NCBI GenBank assembly: GCA_030840805.1
Contig: JAVEDU010000047.1
Location: 1 to 38,017 of the forward strand
Direction of reading: 5' to 3'
Origin: Actinomycetota bacterium
Lineage (GTDB): Bacteria; Actinomycetota; Actinomycetes; Mycobacteriales; HKI-0501
Length of the DNA stretch: 38,017 bases
Each line of letters begins with the position of its first letter. The first letter of the stretch is position 1. The notes below the pieces were generated by a model. The model was not told where the DNA came from and ran no database searches. It worked only from the letters and a program-made list of their open reading frames with translations. Shown one piece after another: positions 1-32,225 of the stretch. A program made the translations under genes and the position numbers.

Positions 1-616
1 CGGTGAGCGGCGTGCCCCGGCCCTGACAGGCCAGTGCTGGCGAGCCGTCATCGAAGTACCACGTCTGGGCGGCAGGACGGGCGGTCACCTCCGCCCACAC
101 CGCGCCCACGTGGGTGCGCTGATGCAGGGTCCGCCAGGACCGGTCCGGCATCCAGAGCCACATCGGCGCACCCGACAGGCCGCCCACCGCGCCGTCGACA
201 AACCGCATCATCGGCCGGATCTCGGCGCGAGGACTCGGCAAGCGAAGGAGATTCAGTGCCTGAACAGCCAAGTCGCCTGGCGCCACACCGGAACGACGGC
301 TCGGGGTTGGTCCCGGTCTTGGCTGGATGACGCACGCAAGTGGACTCATCATCGTGGTGCAGGTCGGGTCGTAGTGCGTTACGGGGGCGGTCCACCTGGC
401 GCTGCCACGATCAGCGGCAGACGGTCCGCCCGCGGGATGTACGGGCACATGGGCTAGCGAGCCGACACATGTTCGAACGATTCCGCCCCACACATGCCTG
501 ACGCTGACGTGGGCACACCCGCCCTGAGCATCGCGCATGCCGACCATGAGCCCTCCGAGTAGCACGCCGAGCGAAACTCCAGCGGCCACCGCCATAGCTG
601 ATCGGCGCGTTAACAC
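1..616 (-). CDS. Secreted protein, C-terminus beyond window edge
   Basis: An open frame without stops runs leftwards from a GTG at 616 (or ATG at 595) and leaves the window. The N-terminus has basic residues (LTRRS) and then a hydrophobic stretch (MAVAAGVSLGVLLGGLMVGM), so it is a signal peptide or anchor. Further in are a proline-rich stretch, then GDLAVQALNLLRLPSP, then GAPMWLWMPDRSW, GAVWAEVTARPAAQTWYFDDG and CQGRGTP. That series resembles a group of uncharacterised actinobacterial exported proteins whose C-terminus carries a W-x-F-G-D-G / C-x-G-x-G-T-P signature; this is from memory. The GTG at 616 overlaps the TAA of the lipoprotein gene before it (GTGTTAA), which suggests coupled translation. 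No good ribosome binding site is visible, so the start is uncertain. Codon choice (CTT, TTG, AGT, AAT) is less GC-biased than in the rest of the window. Function unknown. Confidence 0.6.
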   Translation of the reverse strand, partial: MLTRRSAMAVAAGVSLGVLLGGLMVGMRDAQGGCAHVSVRHVWGGIVRTCVGSLAHVPVHPAGGPSAADRGSARWTAPVTHYDPTCTTMMSPLACVIQPRPGPTPSRRSGVAPGDLAVQALNLLRLPSPRAEIRPMMRFVDGAVGGLSGAPMWLWMPDRSWRTLHQRTHVGAVWAEVTARPAAQTWYFDDGSPALACQGRGTPLT

Positions 617-1167
617 TTCGACCCCGGCCGTTGATCGAGCGCATAGACCCGCCAGATCCCGTCATCGCCGATCTTGAAGTACGCCTGGTCGGGATCGCGG
701 GACTGCCCTCGGAATGTCACGCGGCCCGTGGCTCGGTCGGTGCGAATAGTCATGCGCATATCCAGGCACCCGAACACGATCGCCTCACGACCGCTCCGGC
801 TGACCATCTGCTGCAGGACCACGGGTGTTCCGGATGCGACTTCGTTCTTGTCGTCGAAACCTCTGGCCAACCGGAGCAGCTCCGGCACCAGCGGGTCAGC
901 GGCAACAGGTCCAAGGGCGGCGCGGCGCTGATTCGGCTCTGCTGCAAATACGGCCGGCAGCGTCTCGGTCCAGAAGCGGCGGTACTGCGCGAGGATCTGG
1001 TCCTCCGCAGTCCCCGTCGGCGACACGCTCGGAACAGGCGAGGCAGGAGTCGACGGCGGCAGGGGCGGATCGACCGGACCCTTCCCGGAGTCACCGGTGC
1101 AGCCCGAAGCGCCGAGGACCAGCACAGCCCCCGCGACCACCACGTTCCGCCGGAACCACCCGGTCAC
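610..1167 (-). CDS. Lipoprotein paralogue 1 of 3
   Basis: A 185-residue predicted lipoprotein. I chose the GTG at 1167 because a TACAGT -10 box lies exactly 7 bp before it, and because this start puts the lipobox Cys at residue 23 (LVLGASGC), as in both neighbouring paralogues. After a Pro/Ser/Thr-rich linker comes the domain shared by all three: QILAQYRRFWTETLPA, a short helical region with TPVVLQQMVSRSG, then VFGCLDM, and FKIGDDGIWRVY near the end. Two mature-domain cysteines (in GCLD and the final residue) recur in all three copies and may form a disulphide. This copy is the most divergent, with GCLDMRM where the others have GC(L/I)DSSG. The fold looks like a small secreted domain of the type often called hypothetical in actinobacteria. 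No enzymatic motif is visible. Confidence 0.8.
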   Translation of the reverse strand: MTGWFRRNVVVAGAVLVLGASGCTGDSGKGPVDPPLPPSTPASPVPSVSPTGTAEDQILAQYRRFWTETLPAVFAAEPNQRRAALGPVAADPLVPELLRLARGFDDKNEVASGTPVVLQQMVSRSGREAIVFGCLDMRMTIRTDRATGRVTFRGQSRDPDQAYFKIGDDGIWRVYALDQRPGSKC

Positions 1168-1180
1168 GCCGCACACTGTA
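1168..1180 (-). promoter_or_regulatory. Leaderless promoter, -10 TACAGT
   Basis: TACAGT (1180-1175, minus strand) is followed by 7 bases and then GTG at 1167. A TANNNT box 6-8 bp before a start codon is the known arrangement for leaderless transcripts in actinobacteria. No convincing -35 is visible. The block from CTACAGT to the GTG is identical in front of lipoprotein 3. Confidence 0.65.
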
Positions 1181-1234
1181 GAGCCGCCGACCGTCCGTTC
1201 GGCAGCCCCCGCCGCAAGGCTGTGGACGGCCAGT

Positions 1235-1747
1235 TCAGCAGCTCTCGGTGTTGCCGAACTCGGTCTTCGACGCCCGCCACACACCGTCCGTGCCCTGGAC
1301 GAACGTCACGGTCACCGGGTTCGTCGCCGGGCCCTTGTTGACCTTGCGGCCGGTCCGCCGGTCCACCGCGCCGGCCCCGCTGGAGTCCAGGCACCCGGTG
1401 ACCACGGCGCTCTTTCCGGTCCGCCGGACCGACTGGCGCAACGGCACATCGTTCCCGTACTGCGTCTGCCCATTCCGCTCGAGCGTCGCCAGCCCGGCGA
1501 GCGCGCGACTCAGCGCGGGCTCGGTCAGTGTGGCCGCCAGGATCTTCTTCCGCGCATTCGCCTCCGCCGCCGTGGCGGCGGGAAGCGTCTCGGTCCACAG
1601 TTTCCGGTACTGGCCCAGGATCTGAGCCTCCGCGGGCGGCGACGTCGACGGCTCCGCCGCCGGTTTCCCCCCGCTGCTGCACGCCGGCACGACGAGCACC
1701 GCGAGCGCACCCACAACCAGGATCATTCGCCCGAATCGTCCGGTCAC
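1235..1747 (-). CDS. Lipoprotein paralogue 2 of 3
   Basis: A 170-residue predicted lipoprotein, paralogue of the genes on either side. The GTG at 1747 was chosen from the TACAGT box 7 bp upstream and because the lipobox Cys then falls at residue 23 (AVLVVPAC). The linker is short (SSGGKPAAEPSTSPP), then QILGQYRKLWTETLPA, YGNDVPLRQSVRRTG, VVTGCLDSSGAGAVDRRTG and FVQGTDGVWRAS, with a C-terminal Cys. The 68-bp gap to gene 1 and 41-bp gap to gene 3, plus its own promoter, suggest separate transcription of a tandem duplication rather than a simple operon. Role unknown: it is an exported, membrane-tethered domain with no catalytic motif I recognise. Confidence 0.85.
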   Translation of the reverse strand: MTGRFGRMILVVGALAVLVVPACSSGGKPAAEPSTSPPAEAQILGQYRKLWTETLPAATAAEANARKKILAATLTEPALSRALAGLATLERNGQTQYGNDVPLRQSVRRTGKSAVVTGCLDSSGAGAVDRRTGRKVNKGPATNPVTVTFVQGTDGVWRASKTEFGNTESC

Positions 1748-1783
1748 GCGCGCCACTGTAGGGGCGTTCGGCGGCCCCGTCAG
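1748..1783 (-). promoter_or_regulatory. Leaderless promoter, -35 CTGACG / -10 TACAGT
   Basis: On the minus strand, CTGACG (1783-1778) and TACAGT (1760-1755) are separated by 17 bp. The GTG start lies 7 bp beyond the -10. This is the most complete of the three lipoprotein promoters. Confidence 0.65.
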
Positions 1784-1787
1784 CACT

Positions 1788-2354
1788 TCAGCAGCGCGGA
1801 TCCTTCGGGAAGTACATCCCGTACACACGCCATACCCCGTCATCACCCAGCGTGAACGTCATCAGCACCGCCTCGCGCCGCAGGCCACGACTGACGTACT
1901 GCCCCGTCTCGATGTCGATACTGCCCGTCCCGGACGAGTCGATGCAGCCCTTGAGCGCCGCGGCGTTGCCCCTCCGCTGAAGCACCTGGCTGACCGGCAC
2001 CGCGTGCCCGTACAGCGTGTGGCCGGCGCGGTCCATCGACAGGAGCAGCGCGAGCGCGCTGCTGAGCGCCGGTTCGACCATGATCGGCTCGAGGATCGCG
2101 CGCCGCTCCCCGCGGGGGACGGCCGCCACCGCGGGCAGCACCGTCGTCCAGTACCGCCGGTACACCGCGAGGATCTGTTGCTCGGCCGTGCCGGTCGGTG
2201 CCGCGGTCACCGATTTCGGCGCCGGCGACGACAATTGTGGCGCGGCGCTCGGGGACGGTCTCGGCATCGGCGATCTCTCGTTCGCGCAGGCCGGCGTTCC
2301 GAGCACGACCATGGCCGCCGCGACGACGGCTGCGCACCGGAACCTGCTGGACAC
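1788..2354 (-). CDS. Lipoprotein paralogue 3 of 3
   Basis: A 188-residue predicted lipoprotein. The GTG at 2354 is preceded by TACAGT at a 7-bp distance and gives a lipobox Cys at residue 23 (VVLGTPAC). A longer reading from GTG 2363 is possible, but that codon overlaps the -10 box. Domain hallmarks match the two paralogues downstream: QILAVYRRYWTTVLPA, LYGHAVPVSQVLQRRG, LKGCIDSSGTGSIDIETG, FTLGDDGVWRVYG and a terminal Cys. The Ser/Pro/Ala linker after Cys23 is longer than in paralogue 2. It is the most upstream copy of the tandem set. Function unknown. Confidence 0.85.
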   Translation of the reverse strand: MSSRFRCAAVVAAAMVVLGTPACANERSPMPRPSPSAAPQLSSPAPKSVTAAPTGTAEQQILAVYRRYWTTVLPAVAAVPRGERRAILEPIMVEPALSSALALLLSMDRAGHTLYGHAVPVSQVLQRRGNAAALKGCIDSSGTGSIDIETGQYVSRGLRREAVLMTFTLGDDGVWRVYGMYFPKDPRC

Positions 2355-2367
2355 GCCGCACACTGTA
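2355..2367 (-). promoter_or_regulatory. Leaderless promoter, -10 TACAGT
   Basis: TACAGT (2367-2362, minus strand), then 7 bases, then GTG at 2354. Same sequence and spacing as for lipoproteins 1 and 2. No clear -35. Confidence 0.65.
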
Positions 2368-2461
2368 GGGCCGCCCCGGGTAAAGCGGACGTCCCCTGAC
2401 GGATCGCCATCAAGCCGTCACGAGCAGTGAAGTCTCCCGCCCGATCGGCCGATGACGTCCT

Positions 2462-3016
2462 ATGGTCGCCCCCCTCCCCTCGGTGCCCCGCGGCATCGCC
2501 GCGGAGCTCATCGAGCGGTGCGGGGACGACGTGCGCTTCCTGCACCACCGCCGCGGGCAGCGGCCCGGGAAGGCCGTCATCCCGCTGGTCGCGATCGCGG
2601 CGAGCGGGATCTATGTCATCGGTACGCCGGACCACGCCGCCGAGATCCGGCCGCGGCGCGAGCGCGGGCGCACCGTCGAGGTGCTCGATCTGGGGGAGGC
2701 CGACCCGGCCGCGGTGCTGGACGACCTCGGCCGGCAGCTGGCGGCGGTGCGGTCCGCGCTGGCGGGTCACGGATTCGGCCGTCCCGTCACCGCGCACAGC
2801 CTGCTGTGCCTGCGACCCCGATCCGGTTCGCTCGTCGGGAGCCCGACCGTCGCCGGCGTTCCGCTCCTCACCCCGTTGGGCACCGCCCGGGTCCTGACCG
2901 GCCCCGGTCACCTCGACGGCGCCGTCCGGCAGGCCGTGTACGAGCACCTCGACCGGCACCTGCCCCCGGGTGAGCACGCGCGTACGAACCGCGCACAACC
3001 GATGCCCCACCCATAG
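2462..3016 (+). CDS. NERD-like domain protein, catalytic residues lost
   Basis: A 184-residue protein. The pattern HHRRGQRPGKAVIPLVAIAASGIYVIGTPDHAAEIR, a later LDDLGRQLAAVRSAL, then SLLCLRPRSG and VAGVPLLTPLGTARVL follows the layout of small actinobacterial NERD (nuclease-related) domain proteins. Those normally read R.PGS.A.IDHI.V...GVYVIDAKRY, with the Asp-His and Asp-x-Lys residues of a PD-(D/E)XK-like site. Here the first position reads PLV and the second GTP, so both motifs are gone. I infer a degenerate, probably non-nucleolytic member; the family match is from memory. No ribosome binding site is visible, so the start is uncertain. The TAG stop lies inside the putative -10 of the next gene. 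Confidence 0.6.
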   Translation: MVAPLPSVPRGIAAELIERCGDDVRFLHHRRGQRPGKAVIPLVAIAASGIYVIGTPDHAAEIRPRRERGRTVEVLDLGEADPAAVLDDLGRQLAAVRSALAGHGFGRPVTAHSLLCLRPRSGSLVGSPTVAGVPLLTPLGTARVLTGPGHLDGAVRQAVYEHLDRHLPPGEHARTNRAQPMPHP

Positions 3017-3025
3017 GGTGTCCCC
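3014..3025 (+). promoter_or_regulatory. Possible leaderless promoter of pgm, TAGGGT-N6-ATG
   Basis: TAGGGT at 3014-3019 lies 6 bp before the ATG of phosphoglucomutase, and no Shine-Dalgarno sequence is present. The first three bases of the box are the stop codon of the preceding gene. This fits the TANNNT leaderless pattern but is a single weak example. Confidence 0.35.
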
Positions 3026-4672
3026 ATGTCGGTCCACCCCGGCGCCGGCCAGTCGGCCGAGCCCGAAGATCTCGTCGATGTCCCGCACCTGGTGACCGCG
3101 TACTTCGCGGGGCACCCCGACCCCGCCGTGCCCGAGCAACGGGTCTCCTTCGGCACCTCGGGCCACCGTGGGTCGTCGCTCGACACCGCCTTCACCGCCG
3201 ACCACATCGCGGCCACGAGCCAGGCGATCTGCGAGTACCGCGCGGCCAACGGCATCGACGGTCCGCTGTTCCTCGGCCGGGACACCCACGGCCTGTCCGA
3301 GCCGGCCTGGGTCACGGCACTGGAGGTCTTCGCCGCCAACGGCGTGACCGTGCTGGTCGACGCGGCGGACCGGTACACGCCGACGCCGGCCGTCTCCCAC
3401 GCGATCCTCACCCACAACTCCACCCGCACGGGCGCCCGGGCCGACGGTGTCGTGGTCACCCCGTCGCACAACCCGCCCCGGGACGGTGGCTTCAAGTACA
3501 ACCCGCCGGACGGCGGTCCGGCGGGCAGCGACATCACCCAGTGGATCCAGGACACCGCCAACGCGCATCTCGCCGACGGGCTCCGGCAGGTGCACCGGAT
3601 CCCGTTCGCGCGGGCACGGGCCGCCGAGACCACGCGCACGTACGACTACATCGGTTCCTATGTGGACGACCTGCCGTCCGTGGTGGACCTCGACGCGATC
3701 CGCCACGCGGGGATCCGCATCGGAGCCGACCCGCTCGGCGGTGCCAGCGTCGACTACTGGGGCGCGATCGCGGAGCGGCACAAGCTCGACCTGACCGTGG
3801 TGAACCCGCTGGTCGACCCGACGTGGCGGTTCATGACGCTCGACTGGGACGGCAAGATCCGGATGGACTGCTCGTCCCCGTACGCGATGGCGTCGCTCAT
3901 CGCCCAGCGTGACTCCTACCAGATCGCCACCGGGAACGACGCCGACGCCGACCGTCACGGCATCGTCACCCCGGACGCCGGCCTGATGAACCCGAACCAC
4001 TACCTGGCCGTGGCGATCGAGTACCTGTGCACGAACCGCCCCGACTGGCCCGCCGACGCGGCGATCGGCAAGACGTTGGTCAGCTCCTCGATGATCGACC
4101 GGGTCGCCGAGTCCCTGGGCCGACGGCTGGTAGAGGTGCCGGTGGGGTTCAAGTGGTTCGTGCCCGGGCTGCTCGACGGCTCGATCGGTTTCGGCGGGGA
4201 GGAGAGCGCGGGCGCCTCGTTCCTGCGCCGCGACGGCCGCCCGTGGACCACCGACAAGGACGGCATCATCCTCGCCCTGCTCGCCGCCGAGATCCAGGCC
4301 GTGACCGGCGAGTCGCCGAGCCGGCACTACGCGCGGCTGGTGGAGCGGTTCGGCGACCCGGCGTACGCCCGCGTCGACGCCCCCGCCAGCCGGGACGAGA
4401 AGGCCAAGCTCGGCGCCCTCTCCCCGGAGCAGGTCACCGCCACCGAGCTCGCCGGGGAGCCGATCACCGGCAAGCTGACGAGCGCGCCCGGCAACGGCGC
4501 CGCGATCGGCGGCCTGAAGGTGACCACCGAGTCGGGCTGGTTCGCCGCCCGGCCGTCCGGTACCGAGGACGTCTACAAGGTGTACGCGGAGAGCTTCCGG
4601 GGTCCCGAGCATCTCGCCCAGCTCCAGGACGAGGCCCGCAGGCTCGTGTCCTCGGCGCTCGGCGCATCGTGA
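3026..4672 (+). CDS. pgm: Phosphoglucomutase (alpha-D-glucose-specific)
   Basis: A 548-residue cytosolic enzyme interconverting glucose 1-phosphate and glucose 6-phosphate, linking glycolysis with glycogen, trehalose and cell-wall sugar synthesis. The length matches bacterial Pgm (about 546). Landmarks are FGTSGHRG near residue 43, the phosphoserine loop TPSHNPP (Ser about residue 147), the magnesium loop DADADRHG, the sugar-binding GEESAGASF and the phosphate-binding [14 protein letters not shown] near the C-terminus. All active-site motifs are intact. It lies 9 bp after the NERD-like gene and 29 bp before the TPR-like gene; a functional link to them is not evident. Confidence 0.95.
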
Positions 4673-31322: not shown

Positions 31323-31360
31323 CCATCCGGGCAGGGACCCCGGGACCCGGCGGCGTTCGT

Positions 31361-31373
31361 TACGGTGCCGATC
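31361..31373 (+). promoter_or_regulatory. Leaderless promoter of patatin-like gene, TACGGT-N7-ATG
   Basis: TACGGT (31361-31366) is followed by 7 bases and ATG 31374, with no Shine-Dalgarno. Same geometry as the lipoprotein promoters; it decides between ATG 31374 and the GTG at 31365 that overlaps the box. Confidence 0.6.
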
Positions 31374-32225
31374 ATGGCTGACAGGGCACTGGTGCTGGGT
31401 GGCGGCGGCGTCACGGGGATCGCCTGGGAACTGGGGCTGCTCTGCGGCCTGCGGGACGAGGGCGTGGACCTGACGACCGCGGAGCTCGTCATCGGCACCT
31501 CGGCGGGTTCCGCGGTGGGCGCCCAGATCACCGGCGGGGCGGACCTCGCCGACCTCTACGCGCGGGAGGCGAACGCCCACGCCGACTCCCCGTCGAAGGA
31601 GAAGGCGGTCACGCTGGACCTCGACCGGATGATGGCCTCCATCGCCGCCGTGGCGGCCGGGGCCACCTCGGCGCTGGAGCTGCGGGCCCGGATCGGCCGG
31701 CTCGCCCGGGAGGCGGACACCGTGCCGGAGGCGGAGCGGCTCGACATCATCGCCTCGCGCCTGCCGTCCGCGGAGTGGCCCGCGCGGTCGCTGCTGATCA
31801 CCGGGGTGGACACCGAGACCGGCGAGCTCGTGGTGTGGAGCCGCGAGTCCGGTGTTCCGCTGGTGTCCGCGGTGGCGGCGAGCTGCGCCGTGCCGATCGT
31901 CTGGCCCCCGGTGACGATCGACGGCCACCGGTACATGGACGGCGGGGTCCGGTCCGGTACCAACGCCGACCTGGCCGCGGGCGCGGATGCCGTCGTGGTG
32001 ATCGCGCCGATGGGTGACGCGCCCGCGTTCTCCGGCACGGGCCTGCCGGCGGAGCTGGCCGAGCTCGGTGCCACCGTCCGGACCGCGGTCGTGCGGCCGG
32101 ACGAGGCGGCCCTCGCCGCGATCGGGCCGAACGTCCTCGACCCGAGCCGCAGGTCGGCCGCCGCCCAGGCGGGACGGGCGCAGGCGAAGCAGGTCGCCGA
32201 GCAGGTCCGCGACGCCTGGATCTGA
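31374..32225 (+). CDS. Patatin-like phospholipase
   Basis: A 283-residue patatin-fold acyl hydrolase. The oxyanion hole GGGGVTGIAWELG is at residues 9-21, the nucleophile Ser43 in GTSAGS and the catalytic Asp in MDGGVRSGTNADLA, so the Ser-Asp dyad is intact. No signal peptide; probably cytosolic or membrane-peripheral. Such proteins cleave lipid acyl chains. It begins 51 bp after pcaR with its own leaderless promoter, so it need not belong to the pca operon. It converges on the MMPL gene with a long palindrome between them. Confidence 0.88.
   Translation: MADRALVLGGGGVTGIAWELGLLCGLRDEGVDLTTAELVIGTSAGSAVGAQITGGADLADLYAREANAHADSPSKEKAVTLDLDRMMASIAAVAAGATSALELRARIGRLAREADTVPEAERLDIIASRLPSAEWPARSLLITGVDTETGELVVWSRESGVPLVSAVAASCAVPIVWPPVTIDGHRYMDGGVRSGTNADLAAGADAVVVIAPMGDAPAFSGTGLPAELAELGATVRTAVVRPDEAALAAIGPNVLDPSRRSAAAQAGRAQAKQVAEQVRDAWI

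Follow-up and report, generated by a model that had tools for sequence, protein, structure and literature searches.

Three related genes for putative lipoproteins lie in a row near the start of contig C67 of an Actinomycetota bacterium, and each is preceded by the same -10-like hexamer, TACAGT, at the same distance from a GTG codon. To what kind of module do these genes belong, how are they started, and does keeping three of them matter? We addressed these questions in the 38,017-nt stretch of DNA under analysis (the window, on contig C67), in the 4.46-Mb genome from which it comes and in related genomes. The features concerned are the following.

1..616, minus strand: 5' part of c2, a gene truncated by the contig end and continued at the start of contig C72; its product is secreted, with a PKD-like domain predicted in a relative
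610..616, minus strand: GTGTTAA, the c2 start codon, sharing bases with the final codon and the stop of copy 1
610..1167, minus strand: copy 1, lipoprotein-like gene with a GTG start, 185 aa, Cys23, terminal Cys codon overlapping the start of the next gene
1175-1180, minus strand: TACAGT (-10-like) of copy 1, 7 nt to GTG
1235..1747, minus strand: copy 2, lipoprotein-like gene with a GTG start, 170 aa, Cys23, ending in CTGCTGA without an overlapping start
1755-1760, minus strand: TACAGT (-10-like) of copy 2, 7 nt to GTG
1788..2354, minus strand: copy 3, lipoprotein-like gene with a GTG start, 188 aa, Cys23, ending in CTGCTGA without an overlapping start
2362-2367, minus strand: TACAGT (-10-like) of copy 3, 7 nt to GTG

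An earlier note on this DNA had described three tandem related reading frames with GTG exactly 7 nt after TACAGT, and this was borne out at all three. TACAGT-N7-GTG occurs three times in the whole genome, each time before one of these copies (the reversed pattern occurs six times), and none of the other TANNNT-N7-GTG sites has TACAGT. Counted from that GTG, a hydrophobic stretch and a cysteine at residue 23, where the note had placed the lipobox Cys, were found in every copy by inspection of the sequence. Copies 2 and 3 have a Pro at position -2 relative to Cys23, which departs from the usual lipobox motif. The claim that paired cysteines of the mature domain are conserved amid divergence is also correct: C134 and C185 (copy 1 numbering) are invariant, while the proteins are 40-43% identical. 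At E <= 1, the genome holds the three copies plus one weak match on contig C74.

The same note considered the domain uncharacterised. This stands at the level of sequence families, since the lipoproteins have no Pfam family, their best NCBIfam E-value of 0.0031 is far under the cut-off, and the best PHROGs row, described as a lipoprotein, is not significant (E 0.012). A PDB sequence search returned one row (E 0.12) and phage records gave no match. It does not stand for the predicted structure. An AlphaFold2 model built on 21 homologues (mean pLDDT 87) has helices at residues 57-109 and strands at 112-181. Foldseek found 45 PDB matches to it (E <= 0.001), among which ARC6/PARC6 and Tim44 domains rank highest and some proteins carry NTF2-like in their titles, and the best chain in VIA-align superimposed with a Z of 14.7 and an rmsd of 2.6 over 126 residues. 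The domain is thus predicted to have the NTF2-like fold of a cone-like helix and curved sheet arrangement, which it would share with VirB8-like TraM (3wz3), ARC6/PARC6 and Tim44 domains (Z of 10.1 for 3wz3, 14.7 for 5had and 10.8 for 3qk9). However, identity in the listed fold alignments is 7-14%, the lipobox, terminal Cys and PKD-like partner are features of the present proteins, and membership in this superfamily does not imply a function, which the fold alone does not show. Likewise, the resemblance to VirB8/TraM-type proteins, which have a transmembrane anchor and an exoplasmic NTF2-like domain and are encoded in conjugation clusters, is one of fold only (3wz3, rmsd 3.0 over 122 residues).

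The three copies differ at their 3' ends. Only in copy 1 does the gene run into another start: the TGT inside GTGTTAA is its terminal Cys codon, the GTG is the start of c2, and the two genes overlap by 4 nt. Contigs C67 and C72 have an exact 108-bp end in common (window 1-108; positions 1-108 of the C72 record, L059), and therefore c2 has been split by the assembly. Within the genome, c2 matches occur on these two contigs only, and the next predicted gene after c2 on C72 is on the opposite strand. The overlap is widespread among relatives. In 55 of 65 rows the terminal Cys codon and its preceding base form an NTG start, with A, G or T as N, that overlaps the stop; these rows comprise 7/10 in the clade of the window copies (described below), 40/44 in rows linked to Tad genes and 8/11 in the others. 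Three of those 55 rows (L048, L055 and L110) have no c2 match; they are also the three that lack c2 among the 61 homologous regions, the other 58 of which contain it. A tandem pair in genome G079 likewise has the overlapping start in one of its two copies.

In the model of a c2 relative, residues of about 101-260 were modelled well and the first hundred poorly. Foldseek gave no match to this model at E <= 0.001. In a second fold comparison the top chain was a carbohydrate-binding module (Z 9.9), and the next seven were PKD domains (Z 8.2-9.2). A PKD-like domain in c2 is therefore probable on the strength of the model, but it is less sure than the NTF2-like fold, as a Z of 8.2-9.2 is not far above that of unmatched models. 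Homologues of c2 occur in 194 plasmid records, and many among the 30 matches listed are annotated as 'ATP/GTP-binding protein', a name frequent among c2 homologues (L145, L146 and these matches). Because a Pfam search of four c2 sequences found no domain, this name looks like a carried-over error.

The earlier note had proposed a search for the family and its copy number in related genomes. A 21-row profile matched 121 of the 298 genomes of the order at E <= 1e-6, and on copy number the search added the tandem copies of G079. In addition to the window, we inspected 61 regions: 20 selected from an earlier homologue search, the next 40 by profile score (one stop-containing match being skipped) and one plasmid record. 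A TadA-like ATPase gene is present in 44 of these 61 regions, which are best-scoring rather than random and are related to each other, and 43 of the 44 also have a SAF/CpaB-like match. Pfam identified SAF, T2SSE and T2SSF domains in one such cluster, with one of the two T2SSF matches under the cut-off. In plasmids of Kineococcus and Streptomyces sp. SN-593 the order is lipoprotein homologue, c2, SAF protein, another protein, CpaF/TadA-type ATPase, further Tad genes and TadE; S. canus has the same gene order, with a putative lipoprotein homologue in first place. At the head of these Tad clusters stand KRAD_RS23335/KRAD_RS23340 (Kineococcus radiotolerans pKRAD01), whose annotated ends overlap, and RVR_RS36550/RVR_RS36555 (Streptomyces sp. 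SN-593 pRVR1), where c2 is annotated 'ATP/GTP-binding protein'; in both pairs the first gene is a lipoprotein homologue by tblastn and the second is c2. These two pairs are accompanied by genes for SAF, a CpaF/TadA-type ATPase, T2SSF and TadE, whereas in the window no Tad genes follow, the TadA ATPase, T2SSF and CpaB-like genes do not occur together at the locus, and the lipoprotein gene is present three times. A c2 match in Microbacterium plasmid B (L147, 6001-6522) follows the Tad genes and has genes for a LysM protein and an A24 peptidase next to it, and hence the place of c2 in the cluster can move. A SAF/CpaB protein encoded in the Flp pilus operon of an actinobacterium has been studied (PMC8467076), and the terms lipoprotein and NTF2 are absent from the accessible part of that paper. 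Literature searches, in the text they made available, returned no description of the lipoprotein-c2 pair, which is not proof of absence.

How the genes are started was judged from their relatives. Row L109 of the 65, which has no lipobox, was excluded from this test, and matches shorter than 110 aa had been removed ahead of the count. None of copies 1-3 has an SD-like sequence before its start. In G001 and G002, which are of the same family, ATG starts align with the GTG of the window copies (MTGRF and MTGHF versus VTGRF, VTGWF and VSSRF) and are preceded at 6-8 nt by TATTCT or TACCCT, and in genus g13 TACCGT stands 6 nt before the start. The window copies fall in a clade of 10 rows (support 99/94), in which TANNNT is found 5-8 nt before a start in 9 rows, the exception being L042; a control shifted upstream gave a mean of 1.0% and a maximum of 10%, and SD-like starts number 0/10. 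The features of an actinobacterial leaderless gene, TANNNT about 12-13 nt upstream and no SD sequence, are thus found in copies 1-3 and in 9/10 clade rows. The leaderless GTG start put forward in the earlier note is supported by this comparison, in which other TANNNT hexamers keep the position, and copies 1-3 probably start translation without a leader.

This arrangement is common in the phylum. According to the available text of two studies, leaderless genes can be told by a TANNNT some 12 nt ahead of the start and are on average 19.2% of the genes in Actinobacteria (PMC3160421). In M. tuberculosis they make up 26% of the genes that have a primary start site, and a conserved -35 motif was not found (PMC3898074). 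Copies 1-3, with TANNNT, a GTG start, no SD-like sequence and no -35 seen, are of the same sort as such genes; what is peculiar to this locus is that three paralogues share one hexamer. Of 61 predicted genes sampled from four stretches of the same genome, 8 have TANNNT before one of their first six starts (3.6% at shifted positions), and these include copies 2 and 3 but not copy 1. Genome-wide, TANNNT-N7-GTG occurs 133 times versus 173 for the reversed control and TANNNT-N6-GTG 148 times versus 177, i.e. there is no enrichment. Such bare counts neither support nor refute leaderless starts, and functional support therefore comes from the homologues.

The rows linked to Tad genes behave differently, with a TANNNT start in 1/44 and an SD-like start in 31/44, where the SD criterion is permissive (mean 22% at shifted positions) and the choice of start is uncertain. 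Fisher's test of 9/10 versus 1/44, which ignores relatedness, gives 2e-8, and on the tree the leaderless label requires 5 changes versus 12.1 when shuffled. Orphan rows outside the window clade are leaderless in 3/10 and SD-like in 5/10, so that the orphan and leaderless states are not coupled there. The window belongs to a Tad-free clade with leaderless-type starts.

Our preferred explanation, to which we give an even chance, is that the locus derives from an accessory module of actinobacterial Tad (type IVc) pilus clusters and now stands alone, with more copies and a raised dosage of lipoprotein relative to its partner. The module would consist of an NTF2-like lipoprotein and the secreted, PKD-like c2, with the final codon of the lipoprotein gene overlapping the c2 start. 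Each copy would be transcribed from its own -10 element, with the mRNA beginning at the GTG. Cys23 would be lipidated, a Pro/Ser-rich linker would place the NTF2-like domain outside the membrane, and the two cysteines of that domain may form a disulphide. Copy 1 and c2 would be made together and bind each other. As copy 1 alone keeps the overlapping partner start, copies 2 and 3 would supply extra lipoprotein but no partner, above the coupled ratio; this lends only indirect support to the suggestion in the earlier note that dosage matters. Most likely, the module would serve the assembly of a surface appendage or of the envelope, in trans or independently of pili. The genome does have TadA-like ATPase genes on contigs C84 and C15 (weaker matches on C80 and C22; the only SAF match is on C81), and no lipoprotein or c2 homologue was found on C84 and C15 (loci L143 and L144). 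Their location away from the module, which has no Tad cluster beside it, counts against a Tad-derived origin. A broader version, tentative and less likely than not, is that the pair is an unrecognised exoplasmic Tad module and that one clade left the pilus operon, switched from SD to leaderless initiation and here tripled the lipoprotein with one partner. If true, this would be a traceable natural case of a switch in initiation mode together with a change in stoichiometry on leaving an operon. The earlier note had overlooked three things: the partner gene, the association of the family with Tad pili, and the division of its members into those with SD-like and those with leaderless starts. They tie an unannotated lipoprotein family and c2 to actinobacterial Tad clusters, which gives both a testable role, and the homologue set, with its Tad-free clade and Tad-linked group, is useful for asking why genes change initiation mode.

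A plainer account, which we regard as doubtful, sees nothing more here than tandem duplication. The promoter would have been duplicated along with the gene, the common TACAGT would reflect descent or gene conversion, and there would be no role for dosage or for separate control. The promoter had been called identical, and this is true of the hexamer, its spacing and a few flanking bases (CTACAGTG before and GCGTG at the start), but the spacer differs in copy 2 and no -35 element common to the three copies was seen. The full 16-mer from TACAGT to GTG is identical in copies 1 and 3 only, and that they share even a spacer of no known role speaks for duplication, as do the tandem copies in G079 and the frequency of leaderless starts in the phylum. 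The claim that independent control matters found no backing, as beyond the -10 hexamer and spacing no regulatory sequence is common to copies 1-3. Against simple duplication is the contrast between the divergence of the proteins and the identity of hexamer and spacing in all three. The tree also disagrees: copies 1 and 3 group with the G001/G002 genes (98/86) and copy 2 lies outside this set, so the duplications look old. This suggests, tentatively as the branch of copy 1 is long, that they are older than the split of the two genera. If so, TACAGT was kept or re-homogenised while the proteins drifted to about 40% identity.

It is rather unlikely that the genes are a single operon whose transcription begins mainly at copy 3, with the inner TACAGT sites weak or unused. 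The layout would permit it, as the three reading frames are on one strand with gaps of only 40 and 67 nt, and a terminator scan found none between them. A sigma-70-type promoter scan of 500-2560 gave 0 sites and an Rfam search of window 1-4000 gave nothing. Yet the inner sites retain the hexamer and the 7-nt spacing, and none of the three starts has an SD-like sequence ahead of it.

Less probable still is that these are small-molecule-binding or enzyme-like NTF2 proteins whose linkage to Tad is incidental. Many of the VIA-align matches of the lipoprotein model are indeed enzymes, e.g. dehydratases, but the order lipoprotein-c2-SAF-TadA recurs in several families of the order, and the most conserved positions over 21 relatives are a Cys plus Leu, Gly, Asp and Trp. 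Translation of a leadered transcript from a second in-frame GTG three codons upstream, present in all three copies, is very improbable, since that codon overlaps the -10 element, has no SD-like sequence before it and is not where the relatives start.

A few minor observations were made along the way. Near 6500-6640 of L044, the reading frame of the G002 homologue loses the C-terminal end of the family, perhaps through a frameshift or a sequencing error. Elsewhere in the window, the gene at 3008-4672 (plus strand), which we take to be phosphoglucomutase-like, also has a leaderless-type start, its ATG lying six nt after TAGGGT. At 31323-32222 (plus strand), TACGGT stands 7 nt before the ATG of a protein whose GGGG and GTSAG motifs are presumably patatin-like.
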